A DNA stretch of 64,000 bases from Pseudomonadota bacterium (GTDB lineage: Bacteria > Pseudomonadota > Gammaproteobacteria > Xanthomonadales > Wenzhouxiangellaceae): positions 3,021,530 to 3,085,529 of the forward strand of contig CP053448.1 in NCBI GenBank assembly GCA_013285445.1. The letters run 5' to 3'. Position numbers and translations under genes: made by a program. Of this stretch, positions 14,894 to 38,684 are shown in pieces. The notes below the pieces were generated by a model. The model made no database searches. It was not told where the DNA came from and saw only the letters and a program-made list of their open reading frames with translations. Numbering within the stretch: position 1 is the first letter of the stretch; each line of letters begins with the position of its first letter.

Positions 14894-15205
14894 GTGAGCA
14901 GACGTTACCTCAAAGCCGATCAGTGGCGAGAGCTGATCGCGCAGCAGGCTGCCGGCGCAGAGTCGGTGGCTGAGTTCTGTCAGCGCCATGGCCTGACACC
15001 GAAGTCCTTCTACCGGCGCCGCAAGGCGCTGCGCGAGGCGGATACGCATCAGGGCCTGGTCGCGGTCGCGCCGCCGATGCCGTCTCAGCTCACCGGCCAG
15101 ATAGCGGTGTCGTGGCGCGGTGTCGCGCTGGAGCTTCCAAGCTCGGCTTGTCCGGCCTGGGTCGCCCAACTGATGCGGGAGCTGGCCGATGCGTCTGTTT
15201 CGTGA
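14894..15205 (+). CDS. tnpA: IS66 accessory protein TnpA
   Basis: 103-aa first gene of the IS66 set. The N-terminal helix-turn-helix is visible (SVAEFCQRHGLTPKSFYRRRKAL, residues ~25-47), suggesting DNA binding at the IS ends. It starts at GTG 14894 and overlaps tnpB by 17 nt, suggesting coupled translation. TnpA is needed with TnpB for IS66 transposition, but its precise role is not settled. Confidence 0.9.
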   Translation: MSRRYLKADQWRELIAQQAAGAESVAEFCQRHGLTPKSFYRRRKALREADTHQGLVAVAPPMPSQLTGQIAVSWRGVALELPSSACPAWVAQLMRELADASVS

Positions 15206-15572: not shown

Positions 15573-15590
15573 TTATGCTATACTTTCTGC

Positions 15591-21639: not shown

Positions 21640-22045
21640 GGCGCGTCCTCCCGGCAAAGTCGATGATGTTGTTCGCGGGGTTGTGCGAGGCCGGCTTCCT
21701 GGCACGGATGCCGACCCGCTCGGCCTGCCGGCGGTCCAGCGGGCCAAACAGGCGGCTGCTCACCGGCTCGGGAACCGGCTGCATTTCAACCATGCCGCCG
21801 GCCAGACCGGCGTCGAACATCTGCTCGAACAGGTCGCCCTCGATCAGGTTGACCAGGTCTTCCGGGCCCTGGATGCGATAGCGCTCGATGGCCTCGCGCG
21901 CCCAGGCGACCAGCGCCTCGTAGTTGTCGCGGGTGTCGGGCTGGCCCAGGGCCAGGCACATGGCCTGCCCGGGCCTAATCTGGAAGCGGTGCCAGAGGTA
22001 GTCCGCAAGCGCCTGCGGACGGAGACGGGGAATGGACTCGTTCAT
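21632..22045 (-). CDS. Hypothetical protein (137 aa) between integrase and DUF3883-like gene
   Basis: Unrecognised small helical protein (LADYLWHRFQIRPGQAMCLALGQ; YEALVAWAREAIERYRI). ATG 22045 shares one base with the integrase stop and its stop overlaps the next gene by 8 nt, which is strong evidence that int, this gene and the DUF3883-like gene are translated as a unit. No motif indicates an enzyme. It may be a partner or inhibitor of the nuclease-fold protein, but that rests on position alone. Confidence 0.65.
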   Translation of the reverse strand: MNESIPRLRPQALADYLWHRFQIRPGQAMCLALGQPDTRDNYEALVAWAREAIERYRIQGPEDLVNLIEGDLFEQMFDAGLAGGMVEMQPVPEPVSSRLFGPLDRRQAERVGIRARKPASHNPANNIIDFAGRTRHE

Positions 22046-23274
22046 CAGTCGTCCTCCTGGTTGTTGTCGTTGTAGTTGAGTGCGCCGGCCTGGGAGGCCA
22101 GCAGGCGCGCCATCGCCGAGCCGTCCTGACGGGTCAGGTTGGGCACGTAACGGCTGTAAACCCGAAAGAGCATTTCGGTGGTGGTGTGGCCCAGCACCCG
22201 GGCAATCCACTCTGGTGCTTCACCGGCGCCGAGCATCAGCGTCGCGGCCGTGTGGCGGGTCTGGTAGGGCCGACGGTACTTGAGGCCGAGTTCGGCCAGC
22301 AGAGGCGCCCAGACGCGCTTGGTGAAGTTCTGGTTGTCGATCGGCGAGCCGCGGCGGGTACAGAACACCCAGTCCACGCCCTTGGGCACGCGCCGGCGCT
22401 GGTCGAGCAGCGCGTCACGTACCGGCGGGAGCATCGGCACATCCCGGGCGGAGTCGTAGGTCTTGGTGTCGCTCTGCAGCCGCCCGCGTACCAGGGTGTC
22501 GCGGACCAGGATCACGTTGTTGTCGAAATCGATCCGGTCCCAGCGCAGGGCGTTGGCCTCACCGGTCCGGAGTCCCGTCCAGAAGCGCACGGCCAGGTAG
22601 TTGCGATAGTCCGACCGCACGGTCTGGAGAATCCGGTTGACCTCCTCGAGCGTGAATGGGTGGATATCCGGCTTTTTCTGCTTGAGCGGCTTAATGCCCT
22701 GGAACGAGCGCCGGAACTCGTAGCGGTCGGCCGCCTCATTCAGGATCTGCCGGGCAAACCCCATGATCTTGTTGATCCGGGTGTTGCTCAGCGGCTTGCC
22801 GCGCACACTGACCGTCTTGCTCAAATCCGCCCGGAACGCCAGCAGCTCGGCGCGCGTGATCGAGCCGACCGTCCGGTTGCCGAACCTCGGCAGCAAGTAC
22901 TGGTTCAGGGTGCCGATCACCGTTTCCTCGTAGGAGCGGCGCCAGGCGGGGCGGTTCTCGTCGACCCAGGTTTCGGCGAAGGCTCGGAAGCGGGGGGTGT
23001 GGTCTACTCCCCCTGCCCCGGCACGGCCAGCAGCCGATCCTCCGCCAGCTTCCAGCCCCACGAAACGGTCGGCGAGCTTGCTGCCCGGAAAGGTGCTTCC
23101 GTAATTGAAGGTTCCGAGGGCAATCTCACGCTCAATCCTATCCAGCAGCTTCTGGACGGATCGCCGGTTCGCGGGCTTGTCGGAAAGCGCCGTGTACTCT
23201 CGGCACCGAACGCCGTGGTAGGTGAAATCCAGGTACAAACGGCCAGTTTCAGGGCGGACGCGCACCTTACCCAT
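22045..23274 (-). CDS. Tyrosine recombinase / phage-type integrase
   Basis: 409-aa integrase. Residues 1-40 (GKVRVRPETGRLYLDFTYHG) match the arm-type DNA-binding module typical of DUF3596 integrases. The core-binding domain spans ~95-190. Catalytic residues: Arg in TGLRTGEANAL (~234), His-x-x-Arg-region in YQTRHTAATLML (~340), His in LGHTTTEMLF (~365), and Tyr in RVYSRYV. It overlaps the xis gene by 8 nt upstream. A disordered Gly/Ala-rich insert at ~75-90 (GGGSAAGRAGAGG) is odd. It is the likely integrase for the island reaching toward tRNA-Arg. Confidence 0.93.
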   Translation of the reverse strand: MGKVRVRPETGRLYLDFTYHGVRCREYTALSDKPANRRSVQKLLDRIEREIALGTFNYGSTFPGSKLADRFVGLEAGGGSAAGRAGAGGVDHTPRFRAFAETWVDENRPAWRRSYEETVIGTLNQYLLPRFGNRTVGSITRAELLAFRADLSKTVSVRGKPLSNTRINKIMGFARQILNEAADRYEFRRSFQGIKPLKQKKPDIHPFTLEEVNRILQTVRSDYRNYLAVRFWTGLRTGEANALRWDRIDFDNNVILVRDTLVRGRLQSDTKTYDSARDVPMLPPVRDALLDQRRRVPKGVDWVFCTRRGSPIDNQNFTKRVWAPLLAELGLKYRRPYQTRHTAATLMLGAGEAPEWIARVLGHTTTEMLFRVYSRYVPNLTRQDGSAMARLLASQAGALNYNDNNQEDD

Positions 23275-23506
23275 GGCTGGCCACCCGGCCCTTGGCCATC
23301 GGAATGACCGGGGCGCGAGACTGCGAAAAGTCTGCCATGTCTCGCTCGATCGCGTCCCACAGCCAAAGGATCTTCCGGCGTCCGAAGGGTCGGATGTAGT
23401 GAACGCCCTCTTTCATCACCTCATCCTTCAGACGCGTCAGGATGGTGCGGGGCTCGTACTGAATTCGCTCAGCGAGCTGCTCAGTCGTCAGATACTCAGT
23501 AGTCAT
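23267..23506 (-). CDS. Excisionase-like DNA-binding protein
   Basis: 79-aa winged-helix protein of the AlpA/Xis type: TTEQLAERIQYEPRTILTRLKD (residues ~7-28) forms the helix-turn-helix, followed by the beta wing GVHYIRPFGRRKILWLWDAIE. GGAGAA precedes ATG 23506. It overlaps the integrase by 8 nt, the usual xis-int pairing, and reads out of the phased operator region, so its expression is probably set by the divergent regulator. Confidence 0.82.
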   Translation of the reverse strand: MTTEYLTTEQLAERIQYEPRTILTRLKDEVMKEGVHYIRPFGRRKILWLWDAIERDMADFSQSRAPVIPMAKGRVASHG

Positions 23507-23970: not shown

Positions 23971-26109
23971 TCAGGAAGCATTCTGAGTCAGGAACGCGCT
24001 TGGCTCTGAGGAACTGCTGACCCAGAGACGGCGTATTGCGCGACTCGCGGCGACGTGGAACAGCGCCCGCTCGTTGAGTTCACTGGAGCGTCGCTCAGTC
24101 GGGTCCTCGGTATTGCCAACGGCTGCCTCCAACGGACAAATCCCGGCATTGATGCAAGCCAGGAAGACGTAGCTGAACTCCAGCCCCTTGACCCGATGCA
24201 TCGTGGCAAGGCGCACGCCCTCCTGGTTGCGATCATCACCGGCATCCCGGCTCAGTCGTCGGGTGGCCAGTTCCCGCTGCTTCAGGCCCTCCTCCAGCTG
24301 CGCTACCAAACGGTTGGTGCGAGCCACCACGCAGATATCGGCACCCGCAATACCACGCTCTAGCAATTCTTCAATGCGCTCGGAAATCCAGTCGAGTTCG
24401 GTCTTCTGATCGTCCAGCAAGCCGATTTCCGGCGGCCTGCCGTGCATCAGGGATCGATAGTCCATGCTGGTATCAAGACCCTCATCCAGGTCATCGATCT
24501 CCTGGCCTTCCAGAACGGCAACGGCAAAACATCGCGTCTCTTCCGTGGTCCGATAGTTAATTCTCAGCTTTCGGCTGCGCCCGCGAATATTGATGCCACA
24601 GTGACTCAGCGCAAAGCGGTTGCGGTAGATGCGCTGGTGACCGTCGCCGACAATGAACAGGTCGTTGGGACGTTCTTCCGGGATCATGGCTCGGATCAGC
24701 TTCATTGCATCCGGCCCCATATCCTGAGCTTCGTCGACAATGACCGAGGCGTAAGGGCGGAAACTCTGCCCTTCGTTCATCAGTTCGACGACGTCCTGCT
24801 TGGCCATTTCAGCCGGCCGCAAGCCTTGCTGCTGGAGCCGCATGTGCATTTCCTCGAACACCGGCCAGATCTGTGCCCGTTGGCGACGGTTCAGTGCCAC
24901 GCCTCGACCGATGCGCCGGGCCCGGAAGTAGTCAGTCTTGCTGGTGACCCGCTGCGGCAGGATCACGCGGTCCCACTCTTCGAAGTAAAAACTTTCAGGC
25001 AGGTCTAGCTCGGCCGGCGCATTATCGAGCGCCAGTTGCCAGAGCTTGCGCATGGCCGGCTGACCGGAGTAGACCACTCGATGCGGGTATTTGCTGGCGC
25101 GCAGAAACCGCGACACCCAGGCATCGACGTGGATAACCTCGATGCGATCCAGCTCCTCGGGCTGGCAAATCTTCTTCAGGTTTTCGCGAATATCGGTCGC
25201 GAGATTGGCGGTGAACGTGGTCAGCAGGATGCGCTGATCGCGCCCGGCGAACACATTGCGCGCCAGCCAGCGCGCCCGGTGCATGGCGACCACGGTCTTG
25301 CCGGTTCCGGCGCCGCCAAGAACCCGAATCGGGCCATTGCATTCCCATTCGACGATTCGACGCTGCGAGGGGTGCAGAAAAACCCGCCATTTCTCCAGCG
25401 GCGCATCGAGAATCCGCTCCAGCTCGACGTCATCGTCCACGACGACAAAGCGCCTCCTGGAATGATCCCGCTCCAGCGCGGATGCAAAGTCCGTAGTGTC
25501 AACCGGGCCGGCCGGCAGCGCATACTCGCGCATGACCTCATCCAGATCAGTGCCAGCGGCCAGCAGGTAAAGCGCCTCGAAGGCCTCGCGCGGTAGCCGC
25601 TCTTCCAGGGCTTCGAGCTCCTCTTCGGTATGGATTTCACGTACCAGGTCGAGCCGCTCTTCGGGTACACCCAGGCGCAGCAGTTCCCGATCACGCCGTT
25701 CATGAAACAACGGCGGCACTTCCGGCCGTTGCGGCCTGGCCTCAGGCTGTTCAACAGGCTCGACATGCGTGGCATCGAACACCTGAATACTGCCGGTTTC
25801 CGGATGGATGTTGCAGCGATTCCGGCGGGCCCAGTCATAGGCGTCGTCATGCTTGGCAACCCAGAGGAGAATGTAGACATTGCCCGTGTCCGGCTTGAGC
25901 ACGATGCCGCGGTAGTTGTCGCCCATGCGCACCGACCGATAGTTCGGATCAGCGGCATCATTGATTTTTTCGTAGTTGATCCCCGAACTGAACGGATCCT
26001 GGCGGAATTTGGTAATGAAGTTGCGAACCCGCTTGTTCTCCTGCTTGGGGATATTGGCCAGGCAGTCGAGAATATCGACTGAAAAACTGATGACTGGTTG
26101 CATGCTCAT
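23971..26109 (-). CDS. UvrD/Rep-type superfamily 1 helicase with RelE-like N-terminal domain
   Basis: 712-aa protein. Residues ~5-110 look like a RelE/HigB-type toxin fold (FITKFRQDPFSSGINYE; RSVRMGDNYRGIVL; NVYILLWVAKHDDAY). A linker of about 100 residues follows, then an SF1 helicase: Walker A GGAGTGKTVVAMHR (~262-275), Walker B VIVDEAQDMGPDA (~456), KLRINYRTTEE (motif IV), and RLATMHRVKGLEFSYVFL with HVAASRAIRRLWV near the end. ATG 26109 is 13 bp after the giant helicase stop, so the pair is an operon. The frame is open further upstream, but only as a shadow of that gene. Whether the RelE-like part still cleaves RNA is unknown. Confidence 0.88.
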   Translation of the reverse strand: MSMQPVISFSVDILDCLANIPKQENKRVRNFITKFRQDPFSSGINYEKINDAADPNYRSVRMGDNYRGIVLKPDTGNVYILLWVAKHDDAYDWARRNRCNIHPETGSIQVFDATHVEPVEQPEARPQRPEVPPLFHERRDRELLRLGVPEERLDLVREIHTEEELEALEERLPREAFEALYLLAAGTDLDEVMREYALPAGPVDTTDFASALERDHSRRRFVVVDDDVELERILDAPLEKWRVFLHPSQRRIVEWECNGPIRVLGGAGTGKTVVAMHRARWLARNVFAGRDQRILLTTFTANLATDIRENLKKICQPEELDRIEVIHVDAWVSRFLRASKYPHRVVYSGQPAMRKLWQLALDNAPAELDLPESFYFEEWDRVILPQRVTSKTDYFRARRIGRGVALNRRQRAQIWPVFEEMHMRLQQQGLRPAEMAKQDVVELMNEGQSFRPYASVIVDEAQDMGPDAMKLIRAMIPEERPNDLFIVGDGHQRIYRNRFALSHCGINIRGRSRKLRINYRTTEETRCFAVAVLEGQEIDDLDEGLDTSMDYRSLMHGRPPEIGLLDDQKTELDWISERIEELLERGIAGADICVVARTNRLVAQLEEGLKQRELATRRLSRDAGDDRNQEGVRLATMHRVKGLEFSYVFLACINAGICPLEAAVGNTEDPTERRSSELNERALFHVAASRAIRRLWVSSSSEPSAFLTQNAS

Positions 26110-26122
26110 GGGCTTCTTTCCG

Positions 26123-29100
26123 TCATTCGACCAGCCAGCGCTCGAGCCGGGTGAGTGAGTTTGCGTCAAGGTTGTCCAGAACATTCCATCCCTGCTTGCT
26201 CGCCGTTTCCCGGTCATCGGCCTCGAGCACCACAGCGACCTTCTGGTCCGGCCAGGCCAGCTCCAGCTCGGCGATGACAGCCCCGGAAGCATCCCGGATT
26301 TCCAGACCGGATTCCGGCACCGGAAAGCCGGCGCGCTCCAGGGCCTCGATTTCATCGCCAGGCAGCAGGCTGAGCTCCGCCAGGTCGCTCCAGGCCGAAG
26401 ACACGGGCCGTTCGGCAAGCCCCAGCCCCATCGGAGCAGTGTACAAACCACGATCGACGCCGTCGGCACTGAGCAGGCTGAAGTGATCCAGAAACTGCAG
26501 CAAATTCGACGCGCCCCAGAACCCGGCCCAAGCTGCCTCGAACCGCTCATCCATGGCCGCGCTCCGATCATCCAGCATCCACAGCAGGTGCAGTTGCCGG
26601 GAAAGCGCTTCGATCTCGCCGCCCATCGCACGGCGCATGGCGTCCTGCGGCAAAGCCGCCACCGCAGCCACATGATCGGCCGCCGTACCCAGACTCTCCA
26701 GCAGCCCGCCAAAAACCCGGTCGCTCCCGTCCCCGTCAGCGCCCACCGCTTCGGCAAGGTGCCAGGGGGTGCGACGAACCACTTCCTCACAAACCATCCG
26801 ACGAAGCTCACGCTGACGCACGCTGTCCTGGCGCAGCCAGCCGAAGGCACGCGAGAATGCGGCCTGCCTCAGTCGGTCCAGAGCCTCGGCCCTGCCGGAG
26901 AGGTAGAGCAGCAACCAGGCAAACGGGCCCTCTCCGATCAGGCCGTTGTGGTGCAGATAGGGTTCGAAATCACCGCTGCGGGCCAGACGATCGAGCAGCG
27001 CGATCATCCCGCTGTCCTGTCCACGCCCGAGCAAGGGCCCGGCCGGGTTGCGGATTCTCGCCCCATCGAGCGGCAAGTCGTGCCAGTTCAACGACCAGAC
27101 ACGGAAATTTCCGCTGTCCAGGATGGCCTGACGCTTGAGCACATCGTCGGCATTGCGGTCATGGTGATGGCGAAATCCATCGAGGTACACCGCCACAGGA
27201 AGAAAGCCCGGACGCTCCCGGGCCGGCCAGAGCACGAAGTCGGCATCCGTGCCGACGGCCACATCGTGATCCCGTCCCAGGCGAACCTGCAACTCCAGGT
27301 TCCAGCCCATGGGCGATTCACCTTCCGGCGCTGGTACGGTGATGAATGCACCGGCTGTTTCGTTGACACGCTGACGCTTGAAGCTCAGACCGCTGTCATG
27401 CGCCAACACATCGTGGAAGCGCTGTTCCAGCTCACTTTCGAGAAGGGCGTTGATCGGCACCTTGTTGAGGTGCTCGATGGCCTCGAGCCGATCGCGCGCC
27501 TCGACGATCTTGCCTAGCAGATCCTCGGCCACAGAGCGCGAGATCTCTTTCATGTGGCGGCTTTCGCGCCAAGCCAGAATGCAGCGATAGCAGCCATCCA
27601 GATCAGGATTCTCGCGGCAGGCGCAATCGCGCAACACTTCCAAAGCCTGTTCGAGCACGCGCATCAGCTTCTCGCCGTAGCTCAACAATTCCTTGAGATA
27701 GCCGGTCCCACCGGGAACGCTGTCGTAGAGCACCAGGTACTGCCGGTGACCGGCTCCTCCGGTGACCGGCTCGGCATAGCTGGTCACGCGGATATGGTCG
27801 ACCTTTCCGCGGTAGTAACGGCGCAAGCCCAGCTGAAGTGCGGCAATCAGCGAGCGCCGGCGCACATCGGACGAACCGATCTCACTCATCGGCAGCAGGA
27901 TGCGCACCGCCTCGGACTTCAGTTCGCGATACAGGTACAACGCTTCGAAGTAGTCGTCGTCGCTCTCGACTGCCCCAGGCCGGCGCAACTTGCAGTCGAA
28001 GGCATGTTCGAACCTGCGCTGCTGGCGCGGATCAGGGGAGCGTACCTTTCCGCAATGCCGACAGACCTTGAAACCCGGGCGCGAGGACAGCTCGCCGGCC
28101 ACGGCAATTTCCCGCTCCTGGCCACGTTGTTCCCCGAAATTGACCTCCCTGAGCGTGGCCAGCGGCACATACTCGAATCCGAACGGCAGACTTTCCTGCT
28201 TGATGTGCCAGGCCGGACCAGTTTGGCTCGAATCGATATCGACCAACATCTGCTGGTTATAGAACTTCGGCGTACGCTGATCGCTGTCGTCGCCGATGCG
28301 GCTGGCGCGATCGTCGGCCGTCGCATAAACCTGGCGCAGCTTGAGCAGGGACTGACGCTGGCCGGTATCTGCCCACTGGCTGCTGCCACAGCGCGGACAG
28401 GCAGCGTGGCGATCGCCATTGGCGTCGATGTTTTCCATGAACTGGCATTGGTTGCACAGGCGCCAGCTCTGCGGGCTGGCATTGCCGGCAGAAAGGTCGA
28501 CCTGATCGATCTGCACCGCCCTGCCGACGGCGTAGAAGTGGTTCAGTGGCGCCAGCTCACTCAGCGCCGATTGGGCGGGCCGCTGCATTTCGTAGCTGAT
28601 CTTCTGGTAGGACCTGGTATGACCGTCCTCTTCTCGCTCGGCCTTGCTCAAGCGCCTGATCACGACCGACTGCAGCGTCACACCCTCCTCGGGAAAAGCG
28701 TAGTTGGGCAAAAGCCCTTCGTCGGTGAAGAAATTGAAAGTATGGCGGTCATTCGTTCGTCGCCGCAGCGCCATCAGCGCACTGCGCTCGGATCGAACCC
28801 GCTCGAGCTCTTCGAGCACACGCTCGTCTTCAGGCTCTTTTTCAAGCGCCTGCAGGCGCTTCTTCAGCGCCTCGATACGCCGCGACCATTCCCGGCGTGT
28901 AGCGGCAAGCTCCTTGAGGCGATTGTCCAGCCGCCAGCTCAGGCTGGGCTGCTGCTGGCTGCCGTCGCCCCCAAGATAGGCTTTCAGATGCCGCTGGCCG
29001 GCTTCGTCCAGATCGGGGAACAGCGCGCGGAACTGCTCGAACAACTCTGCTTCATTTCGCTCGACAAAATCGAGAAAATTGACCGGGAAATCCTCGTTTC

Positions 29101-32100
29101 CGCGGACCTCCACGCGGTTGAGCACCTGTCCGAGCCGCATCGGTATCTTCGCGTCTTCGGGCTCTTCTGCCACCCATCGGTCAAAGCACCAGGCCATGAG
29201 CTGACGCTCCAGCACCGCCGTGGCGCGCAGGAATACCCCGGGCGGTTCCACCTGGCCGGCAATCATCCGCTCCGGCTCGGCATGGAAGTACAAGTCGTGC
29301 GGGTGGCCGTTGGCCACCGTCAGGGCCAGGCTGTTGCCATCGCGGCGCCCGGCGCGGCCGATGCGCTGCAGATAGTTCGCCTGCCCGGGTGGCACCGAGC
29401 ACAAAAGCACCGTCGACAGATCACCGATATCGATACCCATCTCAAGTGTGGGCGTCGCAGAGAGCAGGTTGATATGCCAGGGGCGCTCGCCCTGCATGAA
29501 TGACCGCTCCACGATCATGCGGGTATCGGCGTCGAGCAGACCGGTATGCTCGGCAGGCACCAGCCGCCGCGGCAAGCCCCTGGACGGGGGTCGCTGCCCC
29601 TGTCTTTCTTCCGGAATTCCGTAGCACCCGGCGCAGTCATTGCGCAGGCAGGGCAGCTCGTTCCAGCGCGCCAAGTCGCCGGCCGGAACCTGAATTCGAT
29701 GCCCGCAAGCGCTGCATCCCAGGGTCTGGACCTGGCGAGTCACCAGCCAGTCCTCTGCGCTCAATCCCCACACCGACTGCCCGCCGACCGAGCGCTCCAG
29801 CAGCAGCTTCGACTGCGAAAGCACCTTGACGAGCAGCGTCATGGCCTGGCGATACTCGGCAGTGGCCAGTACCGCCTCGCCACTGGCGATCAGGCGAGAA
29901 AACCATTGATAGAACCAGCTGCCCTTTTCGCGATGCAGCGCGGAAAAGTAGTGGCTGACCGGCTCGAGCGTAAGCAGCGCAGGCGGACGCACGCCCATGC
30001 CGTAATGCGGCATGAAGTTCGAGCGGGTCAGCACGAACGGCTTGCCCTTGTTTTCGATCAGGCCGTCGAGAAAGTGGTGATAGAAGGCGCCCTGAGTGCG
30101 CAGTCGCCAGAGAAAGCCGGCCAGAAAGCGGCGCACCTGACGCAGCTCCAGATCGGTCAGTTGCCCGATTTCCTCGCGCCAGACCACATGCAGCCGCTCC
30201 GCCACTTCATCGAGCCGCCGAGCCTCCAGCCCGACAGCGGCACGGCCCTGTCGTTCCAGCGTGCGGCCGATGCGGGCGCGCAGGCCGAAGCTCTGATAGA
30301 CCTCCCACTCAAGGCGCCTCTCGACCAGCTCCGGCAAGTTGGAAGCACGGGGCAGCTTGCCATCCTCCGAAGACTTCAGCGCATCGTAGTCGCGCAGCCA
30401 GGTCATGTTGGGGGCAATGAAGGTGCCGACAAAGTCGGCATCGCTACGCAAGCGTTCCCGCCAGTAGCGCGGGGCCCGTTCGGCCAGCAGGCTCAGGGGC
30501 TGGCCCTCGCCCTCGACCTCGATCAGCTCCGCCAGCGCGGCCCGAACGGTATCGTTGTAGGTGCGCGCACCGAAAAACCCGGCGCGGTGCGCGGCGTCCT
30601 GAACCGAGTCAGAAAACGCGATCAACTTATGGTGATCGTTGAAGCGCGAAGCGTACAGGCGACCGATCCAGACGCTGGCCAGGGAAGCGGCCCGCGAGCC
30701 CATCAGGCTCAGACTGTCTCGGGAATCACACGACGGACAGCGATTGTCGAACAGCAACGAGCGCGCTTCATCGCTGGCGGCTTCCCGGGTCATGATCGGC
30801 AGCCAGACCCTGATCAACGCATCGCTCGCGCAATCGGGACAACATTCGGCCCTGGCCGAGACCAGTTTGCGGCAGGCTGGGCAGAGATGGCTGATTCGCT
30901 GCAGATCAGCAGACCGGTCGGCCGGAATCATGAGACAGACATCGGGGTGACGGCCAAACCATGCCCGGTAGATCTTCTGTAGGTCATGGCCCAGTTCGTC
31001 CGCATCTGGCTTGCGCGTCCCAACCCAGCCGCTGGTGTGGCATTCCCGACAATGCGCTACCGGCAGGCTGAATGGCACATCCTCGCCACTGAGGTCGTCG
31101 CTGAACAGCAGTTCCGGTTTGGCATCGACTCGGGCAGTCAGACGATTGAGTTCACGCAGCCACAGCTGGAGTCGAACCTGAAGGAAAGGCGCTGCTTGCC
31201 CGGCCTCACCGCCGCCGGCACGCGCCCAGGAGATCAGGGCCAGCAGGCTGTCGAGCATGGCTCGGGCCCGTTCCTCGTCAACGTCCAGCCGATGTTGCCA
31301 GGCCCTCACTAGGTCAGCCATCGAGGCGACGCCCTGACAGCGCTCGAGCAAATCGCGAACCGCCTCATGGCGGCGCAATTGTTCGCCAAGCTCAATCCGC
31401 GAAGCAATTCCTTCATCGCCATCAATCAGACGAGGGGCTGCCTCACCCAGCCAGAGCGCAGCCTGGCGCTGCAGAAAGTCCAGCGGGCTGGTCGCAAACT
31501 CGGGAGAAAGCCGGTGCAGGGTCGCAGTAGTCGGCCACTCTCGCAGCTCCGCACTCTGCGATCCGGCAAACTCAACCGGGCTTTGCCGGTCCTCGAGTAT
31601 CAGCGAGTCATCATCGAAATCGGCCGCAAAGATCTCTCCGGCATAATCCAGCAATGCCCGAGCGTTTTCGGCCCCGCCAATGGTGGCCGAAGTTCCGACG
31701 CAGGCCAGATCACCGGTTGGCGCCAGTCGCGTTCTCAAACGACGAATCAGGCAAGCCAGATCGGTGCCCTGCGCGCCATCGAAGGTGTGTAGCTCATCGA
31801 CAACCAGAAACCGTAATTGATCACCATCGTTGTGCTTCCACAGTTCCTGATCACCGGGGCGCATCAGCAGGAAATCCAGCATGCGGTAGTTTGTCAGCAG
31901 AATATCGGGCGGGCTGTCCCGCAGGGTTTCCTTGCAGGTAATCACCGAGTCCTTGCTCATCTGGCGCTGCAGGGAGCTTTCGCTGTCACCCGTATACAGT
32001 CCTACGCGGATGCGCCCTCGGGTCTGGGGATATCGAAAGACTGCTTTAGCCAGACGCTGGGCCTGGTCGCCGGCCAGCGCGTTCATCGGGTAGATGATGA

Positions 32101-32491
32101 TCGCCTTGATGCCCTTGCCCTGATTCCCGGCGCAATGATCCAGGATCGGCAGGGTGAAGCATTCAGTCTTGCCCGAACCGGTGCCGGTGGCGACCAGTGT
32201 GGACCGGGGCGGGCTGGCACACAGCCGGCGAAATGCACTGACCTGATGACGATAAGGATTGAACTCCGGCGCAATCCGGCTGAATGGCAGCTCGGCACCT
32301 TCACCTGTTCGGAATGGCAACCCGAGGCTGACATACGGACCCTTGAACAACACGCCTTGCTGATCGAGAAAATCGTCGATCATCGTGCGCCCGTCATCCC
32401 GCCGAAAGCCGGGGGTTGTCATCGGGAAGGTGGCGTGCAGGAAGCCATGGATGGCTTGCTGCAATTCGCTGGCAACTATCGACGGGAACAC
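26123..32491 (-). CDS. Giant DEAD/DEAH superfamily II helicase with DUF1998 and nuclease-like C-terminus
   Basis: 2122 aa. Motif I ATGTGSGKTE (~101-110), motif II VVDELHTFDGAQ (~231-242), motif III GTSATIG, and motif VI RIGRAGRRDGNS (~1045) mark the helicase. A DUF1998-type block contains YDSVPGGTGYLKEL and four Cys in CACRENPDLDGCYRC (~1630). Further on, DADFVLWP and VAVYLDGFRHHHDRNADDVL (~1745-1785) resemble a Vsr/DUF559 nuclease fold, and ELAWPDQKVAVVLEADDRE near the C-terminus repeats that style. GTG 32491 is the start, close to a GGGAGGGG site. Size and architecture recall DruE of Druantia and DpdJ of the Dpd system, but their partner genes are not here. Confidence 0.85.
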   Translation of the reverse strand: MFPSIVASELQQAIHGFLHATFPMTTPGFRRDDGRTMIDDFLDQQGVLFKGPYVSLGLPFRTGEGAELPFSRIAPEFNPYRHQVSAFRRLCASPPRSTLVATGTGSGKTECFTLPILDHCAGNQGKGIKAIIIYPMNALAGDQAQRLAKAVFRYPQTRGRIRVGLYTGDSESSLQRQMSKDSVITCKETLRDSPPDILLTNYRMLDFLLMRPGDQELWKHNDGDQLRFLVVDELHTFDGAQGTDLACLIRRLRTRLAPTGDLACVGTSATIGGAENARALLDYAGEIFAADFDDDSLILEDRQSPVEFAGSQSAELREWPTTATLHRLSPEFATSPLDFLQRQAALWLGEAAPRLIDGDEGIASRIELGEQLRRHEAVRDLLERCQGVASMADLVRAWQHRLDVDEERARAMLDSLLALISWARAGGGEAGQAAPFLQVRLQLWLRELNRLTARVDAKPELLFSDDLSGEDVPFSLPVAHCRECHTSGWVGTRKPDADELGHDLQKIYRAWFGRHPDVCLMIPADRSADLQRISHLCPACRKLVSARAECCPDCASDALIRVWLPIMTREAASDEARSLLFDNRCPSCDSRDSLSLMGSRAASLASVWIGRLYASRFNDHHKLIAFSDSVQDAAHRAGFFGARTYNDTVRAALAELIEVEGEGQPLSLLAERAPRYWRERLRSDADFVGTFIAPNMTWLRDYDALKSSEDGKLPRASNLPELVERRLEWEVYQSFGLRARIGRTLERQGRAAVGLEARRLDEVAERLHVVWREEIGQLTDLELRQVRRFLAGFLWRLRTQGAFYHHFLDGLIENKGKPFVLTRSNFMPHYGMGVRPPALLTLEPVSHYFSALHREKGSWFYQWFSRLIASGEAVLATAEYRQAMTLLVKVLSQSKLLLERSVGGQSVWGLSAEDWLVTRQVQTLGCSACGHRIQVPAGDLARWNELPCLRNDCAGCYGIPEERQGQRPPSRGLPRRLVPAEHTGLLDADTRMIVERSFMQGERPWHINLLSATPTLEMGIDIGDLSTVLLCSVPPGQANYLQRIGRAGRRDGNSLALTVANGHPHDLYFHAEPERMIAGQVEPPGVFLRATAVLERQLMAWCFDRWVAEEPEDAKIPMRLGQVLNRVEVRGNEDFPVNFLDFVERNEAELFEQFRALFPDLDEAGQRHLKAYLGGDGSQQQPSLSWRLDNRLKELAATRREWSRRIEALKKRLQALEKEPEDERVLEELERVRSERSALMALRRRTNDRHTFNFFTDEGLLPNYAFPEEGVTLQSVVIRRLSKAEREEDGHTRSYQKISYEMQRPAQSALSELAPLNHFYAVGRAVQIDQVDLSAGNASPQSWRLCNQCQFMENIDANGDRHAACPRCGSSQWADTGQRQSLLKLRQVYATADDRASRIGDDSDQRTPKFYNQQMLVDIDSSQTGPAWHIKQESLPFGFEYVPLATLREVNFGEQRGQEREIAVAGELSSRPGFKVCRHCGKVRSPDPRQQRRFEHAFDCKLRRPGAVESDDDYFEALYLYRELKSEAVRILLPMSEIGSSDVRRRSLIAALQLGLRRYYRGKVDHIRVTSYAEPVTGGAGHRQYLVLYDSVPGGTGYLKELLSYGEKLMRVLEQALEVLRDCACRENPDLDGCYRCILAWRESRHMKEISRSVAEDLLGKIVEARDRLEAIEHLNKVPINALLESELEQRFHDVLAHDSGLSFKRQRVNETAGAFITVPAPEGESPMGWNLELQVRLGRDHDVAVGTDADFVLWPARERPGFLPVAVYLDGFRHHHDRNADDVLKRQAILDSGNFRVWSLNWHDLPLDGARIRNPAGPLLGRGQDSGMIALLDRLARSGDFEPYLHHNGLIGEGPFAWLLLYLSGRAEALDRLRQAAFSRAFGWLRQDSVRQRELRRMVCEEVVRRTPWHLAEAVGADGDGSDRVFGGLLESLGTAADHVAAVAALPQDAMRRAMGGEIEALSRQLHLLWMLDDRSAAMDERFEAAWAGFWGASNLLQFLDHFSLLSADGVDRGLYTAPMGLGLAERPVSSAWSDLAELSLLPGDEIEALERAGFPVPESGLEIRDASGAVIAELELAWPDQKVAVVLEADDRETASKQGWNVLDNLDANSLTRLERWLVE

Positions 32492-32714
32492 ACCCCTCCC
32501 CTCACTATGACCTCCCCTGAATCCGGCACATACAAGCCATGTTACACAATCGCGGACTGCTTTATCCTTTGGGCCTGATCGCGCTCCAGGGCCGCTGGCC
32601 CGACATCGCTCTCATCAGGAAGATGGCGCGCTGGTGTTCCCGAACGAACCGCACACAGACTTCGTTGTCCACACTCACACCAAATGTGTACTTTTGTGTA
32701 TACTCCAGGCAGCC
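32492..32714. promoter_or_regulatory. Divergent intergenic region with 10-bp direct repeat
   Basis: 223 bp between the giant helicase and the TIGR04255-family gene. TGTGTA occurs at 32685 and 32695, exactly 10 bp apart, the second running into a -10-like TATACT (32699-32704). No good -35 lies 16-18 bp upstream. The repeat could be an operator for the XRE-like protein of the downstream trio. Confidence 0.35.
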
Positions 32715-33530
32715 ATGGAGCATCAGGTGAGCCAAACAGAGGGGTATCCGAAGCTTGGGAAACAGCCACTTACACTGGTTGTGGCTGAATTTCGCTTTGC
32801 CCCGCTCAACCTCGATAGCGAGGAATTGTGGTCCTTCCGAGAGCAACTGGACGCCCGAATGGGCGGTCGAGCGATGCAGAACACCGTTCAGAATGCCCGC
32901 TTCGAGGTCGACGGACTTCGCATCACCGCCAGCCCGCTGCTGCGCTGGCATGCAGATGAGGCTGGTGAATCTGTTCAGCTGGAGGCCAACCGGCTGATAT
33001 TCTCAACAACCCGGTACCCGCGCTTCTCCGGTTTTTCCAGGAAGGTCAGGGAACTGCTTGCTGCACTTCGGGCGGCCATGCCATTGAAGGACCTGAAAAG
33101 AGTTGGACTACGCTTCAACGACGCAGTCGTGCCGGAAGCAGACGAGGATTTGTCCGATTACCTGCAGGCCACGTTCCTGCCATGGCCATCGTTTGGCGAA
33201 AAGCCGCTGCCAGTGGCCCGACATACAACCGAGACCGTATTCAGCACACCGTCCGGAACACTTGCAATTCGAGCGCTACTGGGCTGCCATGGCCAAAGTT
33301 TCATGCCTGATGTAAGAGACCTTTTTGGACTCAAGTCGCCGATTGAGGTCCCGGACGATCGTGCCACCGCAGTCCTGGATTTTGATCACTATTGGCAGGA
33401 TGCAAACCAGGCAACTAGCGAGTTCAACGTAGATCAGGCGATCAAGCGTCTTGATATGCTCCACGAACCTGCCCGAGAAGCATTCTGGAACGTCACCACG
33501 GATTTTGCGAGGAATGAAAAATGGCGCTAA
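32715..33530 (+). CDS. TIGR04255-family protein
   Basis: 271-aa member of the sporadically distributed TIGR04255 group, whose function is not established. Typical signs: an N-terminal YPKLGKQPLTLVVAEFRFAP, a mid-region beta pattern (LIFSTTRYPRFSGFSRKV), the LKRVGLRFNDAVV segment, and a closing LDMLHEPAREAFWNVTTDFA (partner family members end alike). ATG 32715 was chosen; the frame opens at 32634 but the extra residues are not family-like. It overlaps the next gene by 10 nt, so it is the first of three co-transcribed genes. Confidence 0.75.
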   Translation: MEHQVSQTEGYPKLGKQPLTLVVAEFRFAPLNLDSEELWSFREQLDARMGGRAMQNTVQNARFEVDGLRITASPLLRWHADEAGESVQLEANRLIFSTTRYPRFSGFSRKVRELLAALRAAMPLKDLKRVGLRFNDAVVPEADEDLSDYLQATFLPWPSFGEKPLPVARHTTETVFSTPSGTLAIRALLGCHGQSFMPDVRDLFGLKSPIEVPDDRATAVLDFDHYWQDANQATSEFNVDQAIKRLDMLHEPAREAFWNVTTDFARNEKWR

Positions 33531-34081
33531 GCCACTGCAAACCGCAAACGAAACGCATGGCGCGATTCATGGCGGCCAGCGCCTGCATGTCCGGGGTGTC
33601 GCCGTTTACCTGGGACAGCACAGGTGGACCTCACGCAGAAATGCCGAGCTTCGATGCAACCGGATGTCAACTGCGGGTTCTGGTCCACACCCAGACGCGA
33701 AGCGAATCAACCCGGGCCAACCCGATCACGGAAGCCCTGCAGTCGATTCGAACGACGTTTGGGCTGACCATGGAAATGCTTGCGGATGCATGCGGTGTCA
33801 CTCGAAAGGCAGTTTACAAATGGCTCGATGATGGCGTTGTACCAAACCGTCAACACCAAAGGCGGATCTTCAGGCTCCGCGAGGCCGCATTGAACTGGCG
33901 ACGCGAAGCCTATCCATACCCAAAGAGTCACCTGCACGAACCCATCATGCGGAAAAAGACGCTGCTCGACCTGCTGAATGAAGACCCAGTGGATGTTGAG
34001 CGAATTCTTTTTGCCGGACAACGCCTGAAGCTGGCAGACCTGGATGAAACCGCCGAGGTGATTCCGGATCCTTTCGAGTAG
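33521..34081 (+). CDS. XRE-like helix-turn-helix protein
   Basis: 186 aa. A single HTH is at ~72-100 (TFGLTMEMLADACGVTRKAVYKWLDDGVVPN), the pattern of XRE-type regulators with KW recognition helix. The first ~65 residues and the last ~60 (RKKTLLDLLNEDPVDVERILFAG) are unrecognised. ATG 33521 overlaps the TIGR04255 gene and has AGGA upstream. It is probably the regulator or antitoxin-like member of the trio; the divergent repeat at 32685-32704 may be its target (inference). Confidence 0.75.
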   Translation: MALSHCKPQTKRMARFMAASACMSGVSPFTWDSTGGPHAEMPSFDATGCQLRVLVHTQTRSESTRANPITEALQSIRTTFGLTMEMLADACGVTRKAVYKWLDDGVVPNRQHQRRIFRLREAALNWRREAYPYPKSHLHEPIMRKKTLLDLLNEDPVDVERILFAGQRLKLADLDETAEVIPDPFE

Positions 34082-34090
34082 AAACCATCA

Positions 34091-34906
34091 GTGTCGAATG
34101 TAGGGGCGACAATCAAGGAAAGCGGTTGGCTGCAGGGAAGGGTTCTGTGTGACGAGGACCTGTCAGCACTCGTACCCCGGAAGAACTCGGTACCGGCACC
34201 ACGAATAGGCATCGTGGTAACCCAATCCTGTGACCTCACCCACCCCAGCATCGAAGCCGAACCCCATGTCGAACTCATCGTGGGCTACATGACTGAACGG
34301 GCAAATGATCAGGCACAAAGGGGAAATTTCACCCACGGCAAGAGCGCGCGCCGACTCTGCCTGGAAATCCAGTCCAATCTCGAAGACAGCGCCTGGTACG
34401 AATTTTGCTGTCATGAGCGGGTCTGGATAAACCGTAGCGAGCTGGCGCACAGACAGCCTCATCCAGACCGATTCTTGCTGGACGGCGACATCGAGACTGT
34501 TGCAACCTGGCTAAGCCAGCGCTACCGGCGAGCCGCGCTGCCAGATGATTTCAACAAGCTGATCCCGCCATCAGACAAAAAGGTCAGGAAAGATCAGAAA
34601 AACCTATCTCCCCATATCTCCGCTATTTACTTCAGCCTTGTTCCGGATCGAGATCTGGAGGCCCGCGAAAAGTATCAGATCAATCTCCTGGCGACGATAC
34701 CGGCGGACAAATTGAGCCATTTGGAATCCGCAAGGAAATCCCTTGACTCACTGATCACAAGATTCGAACAGGCAGATATTGATGTCAATGCTCGCCTTCT
34801 CAGGGAAAGGGAAGTGAGCGTTCATGCCGTGAGAGGAATGAAAAGGTTTCCGCTGGATCACTTCTCGCCAGCAGGCGATGAGCACCCGGCTCCGTTTGAC
34901 CAGTAG
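34091..34906 (+). CDS. Hypothetical protein (271 aa), last of the TIGR04255 trio
   Basis: Unrecognised. It starts at GTG 34091, 9 bp after the XRE-like gene. An N-terminal patch (APRIGIVVTQSCDLTHPSIEAEP) is a hydrophobic strand followed by a Cys-Asp-x-x-His motif that could bind metal. The mid region is charged and the C-terminus helical (LESARKSLDSLITRFEQADIDVN). No TM segment. It is convergent with the DprA-like gene, 56 bp apart. Confidence 0.65.
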   Translation: MSNVGATIKESGWLQGRVLCDEDLSALVPRKNSVPAPRIGIVVTQSCDLTHPSIEAEPHVELIVGYMTERANDQAQRGNFTHGKSARRLCLEIQSNLEDSAWYEFCCHERVWINRSELAHRQPHPDRFLLDGDIETVATWLSQRYRRAALPDDFNKLIPPSDKKVRKDQKNLSPHISAIYFSLVPDRDLEAREKYQINLLATIPADKLSHLESARKSLDSLITRFEQADIDVNARLLREREVSVHAVRGMKRFPLDHFSPAGDEHPAPFDQ

Positions 34907-34962
34907 CCACCGCAGCAAACGAGAGTGCAAGGGTCCCGTCGGGGCGGAGAACGTGAATCAAC

Positions 34963-36237
34963 TCAGTCACCTAGCGTCAACCTGCCTTGCGATACCCACG
35001 AATAGGCCAATGGCTTTTTGCTGACTCGATCAACCAACCCCGCGTCTTCGGCCTGCTGCAGCCAGTCCCTGGCCTGGGCCGGTTTGATCTCGAATCGCTC
35101 TGCGATCTCATCCGGCTTCAGGGGTTCAGACTGGATCATCGGCTGAAGCTTCTGTAGAAAAGCCTGGAACAGCGCTTCGGCTGGGGCCTCTGGCTCTTCC
35201 TTGGGGGATGCCGCGTAGAGCACCGGTTCCTCCGACTCGACGTGGACCTGCTCCGGCGCCGACGCAGCCGACTCCTCGGGGCTGTCAGTTGGGGCGACTT
35301 CCGGCGCGAGTGGCTTCTGTTCGAAAAGGGATTCAATCCGGAACTCGGACCCAGGCAAGCGGGCCGCTCCCAGCGCTTCCAACGCGGCCATGCCCTCGGC
35401 CGCAGATGCGGTGCGATGCGTCCAGACTGGGACCCAGGCATGCTTCAGGGCCTCTTTGGCGCCGGCATAGGTGCCGCCGGACTCCTTCTCACAGGTCACG
35501 ATCAGTCCTGCATTGGCGAGGCAGTAGATGTACTTGTTGCGGCCCATTGCGTTGTCAACGAGAAAACGAGCTTCCGGCTGATAGGGCGAAACCAGCACCA
35601 GGTCGCCCGAGCGCAGACCTCCGCGGTAGCGCTGACTGGTGACGGCCCGCATCAGGCTGTCGGCAAGTACACCGATAACCGTGCCTTCATGGTCGAGTGC
35701 CGCCAGCATGGCCGTCTCATCCACACCCCGCGCCCCACCGGACACGATCGAATAACCCTCGGCCGCGGCTTTGGCGCCGATCTGGCGGCAGAAAGCCAAG
35801 TCAGCTTCACCGGCCTTGCGGGAACCGACCACGGCCAGGCCGCCGTTCTGCAACAAGGCACGATTGCCGCAGCCGAAAAACACCGGCGGGGCGGATTTTC
35901 CGAGACGTTTCTTGAGTAGCGTCGGGTACTGTTTGTCGGCCCGTGTCAAAATCCAGATACCGGCCCGCTCCCACTTCTCCAGCGCCAGGGCAAGGGCATT
36001 GCCGCGTTGCAGCAACTTGTCCAGCCGTTCGCGAGGAATTTTCGGGTGGCGCCACTCGGCCAGCAGGCTTGCCGCCTGCCCATTGACCAGCTCTCCGGGT
36101 CGACACCCTCGATGCTTCAACCATTCGGCGAAGTCACCCCACTCAGTCGGCCCCAATGGCTTGGCATCCTTAGGGTCTTGCGCACCAAGACGGGCAGTGA
36201 GCAAGAGAACTGCTTGTGTTTCGTCACCCAGTCGCAT
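34963..36237 (-). CDS. DprA/Smf-like DNA-processing protein
   Basis: 424 aa. The extended Rossmann domain (~100-270) shows VVGSRKAGEADLAF (~134-147) and SGGARGVDETAMLAAL in place of the usual SGxARGID of housekeeping DprA, then GLIVTCEKESGGTYAGAKEAL. An acidic/Pro linker (~290-345) leads to a winged-helix C-terminus (LKPDEIAERFEIKPAQARDWLQQAEDAGLV). Classical DprA binds ssDNA and loads RecA. The variant signature and the operon setting suggest a defence-associated paralogue acting with the SSB and helicases upstream; that role is inferred. Last gene of the minus-strand run, 24 bp after the membrane protein. Confidence 0.85.
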   Translation of the reverse strand: MRLGDETQAVLLLTARLGAQDPKDAKPLGPTEWGDFAEWLKHRGCRPGELVNGQAASLLAEWRHPKIPRERLDKLLQRGNALALALEKWERAGIWILTRADKQYPTLLKKRLGKSAPPVFFGCGNRALLQNGGLAVVGSRKAGEADLAFCRQIGAKAAAEGYSIVSGGARGVDETAMLAALDHEGTVIGVLADSLMRAVTSQRYRGGLRSGDLVLVSPYQPEARFLVDNAMGRNKYIYCLANAGLIVTCEKESGGTYAGAKEALKHAWVPVWTHRTASAAEGMAALEALGAARLPGSEFRIESLFEQKPLAPEVAPTDSPEESAASAPEQVHVESEEPVLYAASPKEEPEAPAEALFQAFLQKLQPMIQSEPLKPDEIAERFEIKPAQARDWLQQAEDAGLVDRVSKKPLAYSWVSQGRLTLGD

Positions 36238-36261
36238 GATGGGTTCAGTTTCCGATCAAGT

Positions 36262-36606
36262 CTACGAAGAGCTCTGGTTCCCGTAACCGATGAAAAACCC
36301 GATCACTCCACACAAGATCAACATTCCGACAGGCCAGCCGATCAATAATCCCAGAAAAGCTCCAATCGCCGCACCGATCAGGCCAGGCTTCGCGGCCCGG
36401 CGATTGGTTTCGTCAGATCCTTTGAGTAAGGCCGTGACGATCAGCACGGTGGCCAGCACAGCAAGAACAGCTGTAACCGGCCCCAGCCCTCCGCCGCCTG
36501 TATCAAGCAATTCATCGGTGAAGCGACCATGCTGGGCCTGTGCCGCTTCGATTGGGCAGAGCAGGACGGCCGCCAAGAACAGGAGCCTTCTTCCAATTTT
36601 CTGCAT
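36262..36606 (-). CDS. Small membrane protein
   Basis: 114 aa. A cleavable signal is likely (residues 6-24, ending AAQAQ), then a TM at ~42-62 (GPVTAVLAVLATVLIVTALL) and a Gly-rich double TM at ~74-110 (PGLIGAAIGAFLGLLIGWPVG; LILCGVIGFFIGYG). Family not recognised. It lies 6 bp after ssb and 24 bp before the DprA-like gene. Its presence is odd in an otherwise cytosolic DNA-handling set; it might anchor the complex or be an effector. Confidence 0.7.
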   Translation of the reverse strand: MQKIGRRLLFLAAVLLCPIEAAQAQHGRFTDELLDTGGGGLGPVTAVLAVLATVLIVTALLKGSDETNRRAAKPGLIGAAIGAFLGLLIGWPVGMLILCGVIGFFIGYGNQSSS

Positions 36607-36612
36607 CAGATG

Positions 36613-37043
36613 TCAGAACGGAATGTCATTGGGGTCGTGTTCACTCAAACTCCTCGCCTCTCTAGTTGCGCCGGTCCGCGCAGATTCGGGTTGATCACCC
36701 TGCACACCTCCGGCAGTATCCAGCATCTGAAGATTCTGCGCTACGATTTCGGTGGTATAGCGATCACGCCCTTCCTGATCCTGCCATTTGCGTGTTTGAA
36801 TTCTCCCGTCGATATACACCTTGCTGCCTTTTCGAAGGTATTCGTTAGCGATCCCGGCAAGGCGGCCGAACAGGACAACGTCATGCCACTCGGTATTTTC
36901 CTGGCGTTCCCCCGTGTTACTATCACGCCAACTTTCGCTGGTAGCCAATCGAAGATTGGTCACCATGGGGTTTGATTGCGTCGTCCTCGTCTCAGGATCA
37001 GTCCCAAGATTTCCAATCAGAAATGCTCTGTTTCCCCGGCCAT
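36613..37043 (-). CDS. ssb: Single-stranded DNA-binding protein with apparent 1-nt frameshift near the start
   Basis: The main frame (36613-36966 from its first ATG) gives an OB-fold [56 protein letters not shown] and the acidic tail tip DPNDIPF. It lacks strand 1, but the same frame upstream reads [17 protein letters not shown] without any start codon. At 37043 an ATG with AAGGAG 6 nt upstream opens in another frame as MAGETEHF-stop. Adding one C in the run at about 37034-37040 joins them as [14 protein letters not shown], the canonical SSB beginning (143 aa). So there is either a real frameshift or a sequencing error. It lies 43 bp after the NERD-UvrD gene. Confidence 0.85.
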
Positions 37044-37086
37044 CTTTTTCTCCTTCCCCTGATGAGCTTACTAGCCACTTGGCCTA

Positions 37087-38679
37087 CTAGTCAGTTCCAT
37101 GGTAAATCACTGATAGTACAGCCTTCGCTCGGCTCATCGCCACATAATGGGTCGCAATATCTTGCTTGTTCTTCGGATTCGGCTCTGGCAGGTCAATCAC
37201 AACGATCGCGTCATTTTCCAGACCCTTGAAATCAGCCACTCGGGCGAAAGTCATGGTGCTTGGCGGAAAGTTGGCCAGTGAATATTCATCGACCTGCTTG
37301 ATCTGTTGGCGCCAGTGTTCCGGTAAAGCCGAGACGACCGAATGGCGGAACTCCTGACCTGAAAGAATGGTAATTTGAGCGGGCGCCAATCCACCTTCTT
37401 CGACAAGAAACTCCAGCTCCGCCTCCAGCTCAGCAACCGTCTGCTCGATGCCATCAACCAGTTTTTTCCGTACTGCCGGACCCTCGCCGGCCCCCTGAAC
37501 TCCCATGTCGGCACCGAGAGCTGACTTGACCTCTTCCAGGATGAGCCGTGTATTTCGACAATTCTTCGTCAATGTCGCCAGAGCCGCGCCGTATGTTCTG
37601 AGGATTTCAAAAGCCTCAGGCTCTGCTTCACCAAAAAAGCCACTTTGGTTATTGATGTCATAAAAGAAACACCAGCGACCATCACTCAAGCCACCCTTCA
37701 GACTCCTGTCGAGCAGGTCAAGGCTGGCCATTTGCAGCATGTCCTGCCCCTCATCTACAATGATGGCATCAAAAGCATCCAGATTTTTTCGGCGCAGCAT
37801 TACCTCAAGGCCAGAGAGTCGGCAAACTTCAAGATTCGGCATGCTGAAATGCATGCGCAGATAGCTTTGCAACCAGGGAGACTTGCAAACCAGAGCAACC
37901 TGTTTACCAGAACCGGTCCAGCGACGCGCAAACTCCAGTGCCATCAGAGTTTTCCCAGTTCCTGCGCCGCCTGAGCAAAGCACCCTGCGGTTCTCGGAAT
38001 AACAGTCAACAAGCGCAAGCTGGCTTTGGGTGAGCAGAATTACCTGGTCGGCCGCCTGGCTGGCCTGAACATGCAACGGAACGATAGCCTCAACCTCGGG
38101 CCGAATAACAGAACCGAGTTCCTGAAGAGCGGAACTGTCGATTTTTCTCGCCTGAACGCCAGGTTTTTTTTCCCAATAAGCGAAGAGACTCCGCAACCAT
38201 CTATCCAGATCCTTGACGATCCGACTGTCGGCTACCATTGCCCGATCCCATTCCACGCCTGAATCTCGCCAGTCCGTATCCGGAAAGACAACCCCATAGC
38301 CAAAAACAAGCTTTGCAAATACCGGGGCAGAAAGCGTCTCCTTGAGTCTCTTGATCAAGCCGTGCAAGCCCGTTTCAGCCTGGCGAAAAGGGCTTTCTGA
38401 AAGGCGGTGCTCAGTGCCGCTCGCGTCCGTCGAATACCAGACACCCTGCCGACAGGCAATACCTCCGCCTTTTACCTCCAGGACATAAATGCCCCTTGGG
38501 CAACAAATGACGAAATCAAGCTCTCCGAAGCGCTTGCGTGCGTGCCGGGTCAGATTCAGGGAGTGGTAGGCAACGTACTCGTTCCGAGTATCCTGCGGCA
38601 CGCTGCGCTTCAGGGCATCGAATACGCGCAACTCTGCACGGCTCTTTCGATTATAGGGCGAAGCCGGGATCATTCTCAT
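37087..38679 (-). CDS. NERD-domain UvrD-like helicase/ATPase
   Basis: 530 aa. The N-terminal NERD nuclease-related domain is seen in SRAELRVFDAL, FGELDFVICCPRGIYVLEVKGG (~51-72), with the E...D...E-V-K pattern of this PD-(D/E)XK-like fold. The C-terminal part is a UvrD-like SF1 module: Walker A GGAGTGKTLMALE (~236-248), VDEGQDMLQMA (~306), KNCRNTRLILEE, and VADFKGLENDAIVVID with HYVAMSRAKAVLSVI at the end. The NERD signature residues look intact, so it may cut DNA. It follows the 510-aa gene by 5 bp. Confidence 0.88.
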   Translation of the reverse strand: MRMIPASPYNRKSRAELRVFDALKRSVPQDTRNEYVAYHSLNLTRHARKRFGELDFVICCPRGIYVLEVKGGGIACRQGVWYSTDASGTEHRLSESPFRQAETGLHGLIKRLKETLSAPVFAKLVFGYGVVFPDTDWRDSGVEWDRAMVADSRIVKDLDRWLRSLFAYWEKKPGVQARKIDSSALQELGSVIRPEVEAIVPLHVQASQAADQVILLTQSQLALVDCYSENRRVLCSGGAGTGKTLMALEFARRWTGSGKQVALVCKSPWLQSYLRMHFSMPNLEVCRLSGLEVMLRRKNLDAFDAIIVDEGQDMLQMASLDLLDRSLKGGLSDGRWCFFYDINNQSGFFGEAEPEAFEILRTYGAALATLTKNCRNTRLILEEVKSALGADMGVQGAGEGPAVRKKLVDGIEQTVAELEAELEFLVEEGGLAPAQITILSGQEFRHSVVSALPEHWRQQIKQVDEYSLANFPPSTMTFARVADFKGLENDAIVVIDLPEPNPKNKQDIATHYVAMSRAKAVLSVIYHGTD

Positions 38680-38684
38680 GATTG

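Follow-up and report, generated by a model that had tools for sequence, protein, structure and literature searches.

A probable split ARMADA type II locus in a Wenzhouxiangellaceae genome, with 14 kb of cargo between its two gene pairs

Whether two adjacent helicase genes in a Wenzhouxiangellaceae genome form a defence module of their own, or belong to something larger, is the question raised by a 64,000-nucleotide stretch of contig CP053448.1 (positions 3,021,530 to 3,085,529; hereafter the window). A first-pass annotation, made from the letters alone, favoured a separate compact module. Here we report that the pair is, with a probability of roughly 0.93 as judged from sequence, armC-armD, the downstream effector half of ARMADA type II, a four-gene bacterial antiphage system recently described in E. 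coli NCTC 12900 and ATCC 8739 (Bell et al. 2025, PMC12458937), and that the window would then carry a split ARMADA II with 14 kb of cargo between its halves. The finding is a system already known, here in an unusual arrangement with its halves split.

The first open reading frame (ORF) of the pair (26123-32491, minus strand) encodes a YprA/DUF1998-type helicase of 2122 amino acids (aa) with DEAD, Helicase_C and MrfA Zn-binding (DUF1998-type) domains in Pfam; the second, downstream on the same strand (23971-26109), encodes a 712-aa RelE-UvrD protein in which Pfam recognizes the N- and C-terminal UvrD domains. A mechanical ORF call makes the second protein 959 aa long, while the true start is the ATG at 26109, preceded by a ribosome-binding-like GGAAAG and leaving an intergenic gap of 13 bp. 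These coordinates bear out the two-gene, single-strand unit of the first-pass annotation, and its likening of the giant protein to DruE and DpdJ without their partners also stands: DruE models are the top PADLOC matches, consistent with a common YprA lineage, and DpdJ, a distant helicase homologue, follows weakly (89 bits or less). The annotation had named a full Druantia or Dpd gene set nearby as evidence that would count against a separate module; among the genes scanned around the pair there was neither DruH nor any other Dru partner (PADLOC), nor the Dpd 7-deazaguanine DNA modification set (Pfam, PADLOC). Both identities were rejected because these partner genes were not found; the pair is accompanied by armA and armB instead.

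A tblastn search of plasmids recovered the two genes as neighbours in E. coli and Klebsiella plasmids, cyanobacteria, Microvirga and other alphaproteobacteria; in those records the pair makes up the 3' half of an operon that opens with genes for an SNF2-type helicase and a ~1,640-aa methyltransferase. In a survey of 85 ARMADA loci (80 from GTDB and five from plasmids), armC and armD were adjacent in 72 of 74, with armA-armB upstream, so their pairing is no accident, and the first-pass annotation was right to treat them as a unit. The corresponding partners occur in the window 14 kb upstream on the same strand, which is why a separate module was rejected; the annotation's broader claim, that the genes serve defence, is upheld through membership of ARMADA type II. 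The genes concerned are these:

52217-55093, minus strand: armA, SNF2/BrxHII/DrmD-like helicase, 958 aa, 52% identical to E. coli ArmA
51348-52220, minus strand: NYN-domain protein (accessory) between armA and armB, with a 4-bp overlap with each
46531-51351, minus strand: armB, PglX-like N6-adenine DNA methyltransferase, 1606 aa, 50-51% identical to E. coli ArmB
32492-46530: armB-armC cargo pocket, 14.0 kb, larger than any other measured
26123-32491, minus strand: armC, YprA-family superfamily 2 helicase with MrfA Zn-binding and C-terminal Vsr-like nuclease domains, 2122 aa, 41-42% identical to E. coli ArmC
23971-26109, minus strand: armD, RelE-fold domain (~aa 1-98) and UvrD/GajB-like superfamily 1 (SF1) helicase, 712 aa, 51-52% identical to E. 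coli ArmD

The window agrees with the E. coli system in having all four genes in A-B-C-D order, with ArmA and ArmB genes preceding ArmC on one strand and ArmC followed by the RelE-fused, GajB-like helicase, in domain make-up, and in location on an integrase-bearing island. The residues mutated by Bell et al. and required for defence are ArmA K136/D236, ArmB G605/N971, ArmC K110/D234 and ArmD K266/D454 (PMC12458937). Every one of them falls at exactly the published number in the E. coli copy of our survey (L007), which can therefore stand for the tested system (its armC is present in 518 of 5,426 complete E. coli genomes), and at all eight aligned positions the window proteins have the identical residue. 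ArmB, a single copy in this genome, retains its NPPW and GxG motifs and scores 768 bits to a model that also matches E. coli ArmB (925 bits), against only 191 to DrmMI. In G316, the closest relative found, all four genes are present, at 67/64/55/62% identity (ArmA/B/C/D) to the window. Across the loci, identity to the window in ArmB is correlated with that in ArmC (rho 0.85) and in ArmD (rho 0.90), so that armAB and armCD appear from their sequences to have evolved together.

Several observations weigh against this assignment. The four genes do not form a contiguous operon, armB and armC being 14.0 kb apart; over this distance, with three pocket genes on the opposite strand, the halves may or may not be co-expressed. 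According to Bell et al. the gene order is strict, and nested or intervening genes go unmentioned in their text (PMC12458937); the window has both the cargo between armAB and armCD and the NYN gene between armA and armB. The predicted C-terminal domain of ArmC resembles Vsr-like folds weakly (I-Bth0305I, Z 5.2), and in the available part of Bell et al. the Walker motifs of ArmD are mutated and the RelE active site is not among the mutated sites (PMC12458937). On the first point, 32 of 58 measured loci have more than 500 bp between armB and armC, so strict contiguity is no defining feature.

As to the ArmC nuclease, Bell et al. predicted a Vsr-type domain at the C-terminus (PMC12458937), and the window protein aligns with its E. 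coli counterpart over the full length. In the C-terminal fragment (residue 1 being ArmC 1640), E50, D112, D132, H137, D144 and R148 are invariant, window included; Foldseek returned no match for this region at E <= 0.001. Given so weak a structural match, it is the prediction of Bell et al. and the conserved residues that carry the nuclease assignment.

We infer a division of labour in which ArmB together with ArmA most likely puts an adenine-methylation mark on host DNA, while ArmC, through its helicase and Vsr-type nuclease domain, and ArmD, through its RelE-fold domain and SF1 helicase, would unwind and destroy unmarked incoming phage DNA without killing the host. In the E. coli system no protection remains once any of the four genes is deleted, and phage is blocked without host shutdown, ARMADA-expressing cells remaining intact and metabolically undisturbed (PMC12458937).

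The strongest competitor to this scheme concerns ArmD, whose RelE domain might act as a ribosome-dependent RNase and, as an abortive arm, shut the infected cell down. The RelE-like fold joined to an SF1 helicase, proposed in the first-pass annotation, is supported by the UvrD domains and by structure prediction: Pfam finds no RelE match by sequence at the ArmD N-terminus, yet the model of the N-terminal 239 aa (predicted local distance difference test 91.8) is of the RelE/YafQ/YoeB type. The first ~98 residues match YafQ best (Z 9.7, root-mean-square deviation 2.5, 87 residues aligned), followed by other RelE-superfamily structures such as ribosome-bound RelE (Z 8.0) and the CARF-RelE protein Cami1 (Z 8.2), the latter a precedent for RelE in immunity. 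Across 54 ArmD sequences W93 never varies, and R67, H87, D88 and Y91 hardly do. In a profile alignment R67 and Y91 line up with the equivalent Arg and Tyr of an archaeal RelE, and a His stands at the position of a catalytic-type Arg; these positions are read as catalytic by analogy with RelE and YafQ. Conserved R67, H87 and Y91 are thus compatible with an RNase active site, the activity itself being only predicted. The intact cells and undisturbed metabolism of the published system do not favour a suicide toxin as the main action, and no antitoxin gene was seen adjoining armD, so that we regard an abortive RNase as doubtful, though it fares best among the alternatives. ArmD shares its parts with GajB of Gabija and with RelE/YafQ toxins, and differs in fusing the two, with neither an antitoxin partner nor a GajA nuclease.

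More distant ArmD-like relatives (30-35% identity, RelE part included where read) adjoin BPTD_3080-type restriction genes and methyltransferases in L012 and L113; others of this group adjoin brxL (L013, L114) and a DUF4011 protein (L116), and one lies downstream of a methyltransferase and a helicase (L115). Because such relatives occur beside genes of other methylation-linked systems, RelE-UvrD seems, on the sequences compared, to be a part shared by several of them, its tightest association being with ARMADA II.

What, then, separates the two halves in the window? The pocket contains the following genes:

43215-46430, minus strand: drmA-like helicase (PADLOC DrmA 648 bits; NCBIfam DrmA 799 bits, below its 950 cut-off)
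41401-43275, minus strand: drmB-like gene with MrfA Zn-binding domain
40214-41386, minus strand: h390, small UvrD-family helicase of the drmAB module
38685-40217, minus strand: p510, uncharacterised, no family match, homologue at the same position in L118
37087-38679, minus strand: NERD nuclease-helicase of the drmAB module
34963-36237, minus strand: PsyrA-like DprA/SLOG protein (469 bits to PsyrA), no PsyrT among the scanned pocket genes
34091-34906, plus strand: 271-aa ORF, uncharacterised
33521-34081, plus strand: helix-turn-helix (HTH) protein
32634-33530, plus strand: TIGR04255 family protein (113 bits against a cut-off of 30)

For drmA the ATG at 46430 was chosen; the start at 46706 was not adopted, and the ATG overlapping the armB stop (46534) is out of frame. 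The five genes from drmA to NERD are best read as cargo, since they differ from the arm genes in composition and occur away from them. GC content at third codon positions is 0.71-0.81 in the arm genes against 0.52-0.60 in the drm block, and in leave-one-out codon usage each gene lies nearest its own group. The same five genes (37087-46430 in the window) stand alone and in the same order in L118 (G142:C17, 6423-15673), and shorter versions of checked homology occur in Photobacterium, Deinococcus and Streptomyces; no arm genes adjoin any of these blocks. The stand-alone drmA-drmB-h390-p510-NERD set, with no methyltransferase of its own, may represent a DISARM relative that lacks one. No drmA was found at threshold within the 10-kb flank of the 80 genome ARMADA loci, and across 370 genomes of the class armC occurs in 10 and drmA in 10, with both together only in this genome, which makes the arrangement rare.

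With a drmA-drmB pair so close, armA-armB might now serve it as DrmD and DrmMI, leaving armC-armD as a second effector arm that shares the mark, or as a leftover. This hybrid DISARM draws on the co-directional run armA-NYN-armB-drmA-drmB-h390-p510-NERD, in which armB and drmA are 100 bp apart and the other junctions are small gaps or overlaps, and on Tsukamurella, where a UvrD-drmA-drmB set lies directly upstream of the ARMADA II operon and abuts armA. DISARM class I and ARMADA also have a homologous helicase and methyltransferase in common (PMC12458937). However, armA and armB are of ARMADA type, the block differs in base composition from armAB, the block or its drmA-drmB-helicase core occurs without such a methyltransferase adjacent in G142, Photobacterium, Deinococcus and Streptomyces, and armC and armD are intact with their catalytic motifs retained. 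We consider a hybrid unlikely. A typical class I DISARM was rejected because the methyltransferase is of the wrong type and no pocket gene matched DrmC; the drm block is instead a five-gene set in which drmA-drmB is joined by a small UvrD helicase, p510 and a NERD helicase.

A drm block inserted in an ARMADA II operon is one instance of a wider pattern: the armB-armC junction is a recurrent site for other defence systems in these operons. Gaps longer than 500 bp were present at 32 of 58 armB-armC junctions, against 2 of 43 for armA-armB and 2 of 74 for armC-armD (Fisher p 3e-8 and 2e-12, respectively, with related loci not collapsed). Pockets contained a 1,627-aa MkoA of Mokosh (L036), HamB of Hachiman (L060), a Gabija-like OLD/TOPRIM ATPase with UvrD (L074), a PsyrT-type helicase with PsyrA (L020; PsyrA also in L091), GmrSD-like proteins (L029, L076, L087), PDC-S68 (L031) and PifA beside an AlbA-type protein (L126). 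The pocket of G316 has cargo of its own, unlike that of the window, with proteins of 137 and 892 aa, and several pocket ORFs had no match at all. A protein of ~900 aa with weak PDC-M28B and PDC-M28C matches occurs in two armB-armC pockets (L086, 6910-9633; L119, 15716-18391).

ARMADA sits in defence islands, where systems pile up anyway, and the filled junction might therefore be ordinary clutter with no specific cargo site. Ordinary clutter would fit poorly with two other junctions that are almost never opened, and with the direction of the pocket ORFs of at least 140 aa, 77 of 87 of which are co-directional with the operon; we judge this explanation improbable. Against a cargo site counts the sampling, the 80 GTDB loci being those most similar to the query and not a random sample.

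How such cargo is exchanged may be glimpsed in pairs of close relatives with a filled and an empty pocket (L029/L030 and L010/L073). L029 and L030 are 96% alike in armC and ~94% in armA, and the pocket contains a GmrSD-like gene in one and 115 bp in the other; their armB genes are 86-96% identical over the first ~2.7 kb and 52-60% thereafter. The same 3' third of armB (~nt 3000-4500), presumably the target-recognition region, falls to ~50% in L029/L030, L010/L073, L018/L049, L007/L014 and L070/L081, pairs otherwise ~80-96% identical, a drop that suggests exchange of target recognition and that is also seen where the pocket is unchanged. The L046 pocket contains the relic of an armB 3' end. This relic is 81% identical to the end of armB in the near relative L088, and the 2.3 kb that follow it are colinear with the L088 pocket (80.6%), the trace expected if a new armB end and a new gene had been inserted upstream of the old end. 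Further relics occur in L119 and, more weakly (27 aa), in L021; an apparent match in L054 was set aside because it arose at the edge of a broken armB match.

These few cases suggest an occasional joint exchange of the target-recognition and cargo segments, and recombination in the 3' part of armB is likely the route for at least some cargo. Against a general route of this kind, relics were present in three of ~37 pockets tested, one of just 27 aa, and the window's own pocket has none. The fullest version of the proposal is that the armB-armC junction is a dedicated cargo site where a target-recognition swap and acquisition of a whole system occur in one recombination step, the window being the extreme, since a complete drmAB module that has no methyltransferase of its own is docked within its operon; we put the odds on this proposal at about even. 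If it is true, a changed self-mark can bring changed backup weapons.

The weakest contender, a self-contained two-gene module merely near a DISARM locus, can point to the 14 kb between the halves and the nearly always tight armC-armD junction, and is very improbable given an upstream helicase and methyltransferase of ARMADA type (50-52% identical to the E. coli genes, the methyltransferase far closer to the ArmB-matching model than to DrmMI), the correlated identities of the two halves, and the need for all four genes in E. coli (PMC12458937).

A split ARMADA type II thus remains our preferred reading, and its layout can be understood as two rigid gene pairs around an open slot for other defence systems. 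This cargo-site pattern appears new, as we did not find it in the text of Bell et al. (PMC12458937). BREX loci with embedded auxiliary nuclease effectors (PMC12839542) likewise have extra effector genes inside a methylation-based operon; ARMADA II extras differ in concentrating at one junction and in often looking like whole independent systems. We propose the pocket as a place to seek unknown defence genes, and the layout lets one ask whether a nested system depends on the methylation mark of its host system. For annotation tools it is a warning: split systems are common, and here armC-armD looked like an orphan pair.

One further feature adjoins armD:

22045-23274, minus strand: phage-type tyrosine integrase

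Its position suggests a mobile island, whose relation to the system we infer; a small HTH/AlpA-like gene accompanies it (22045-23506 for both). As to the ends of such an island, no 14-mer is shared between the tRNA-Arg (55471-55547) and the rest of the window. Within the pocket, the orphan PsyrA-like gene may be set beside the full PsyrTA pair of the L020 pocket and the PsyrA homologues of the L020 and L091 pockets, and the three opposite-strand genes directly upstream of armC (32634-34906) may be a further small module. The NYN gene (51348-52220) opens an armA-armB junction that is elsewhere nearly always closed. Finally, three consecutive ORFs at 14894-17129 are IS66-type-transposon-like, by appearance only.

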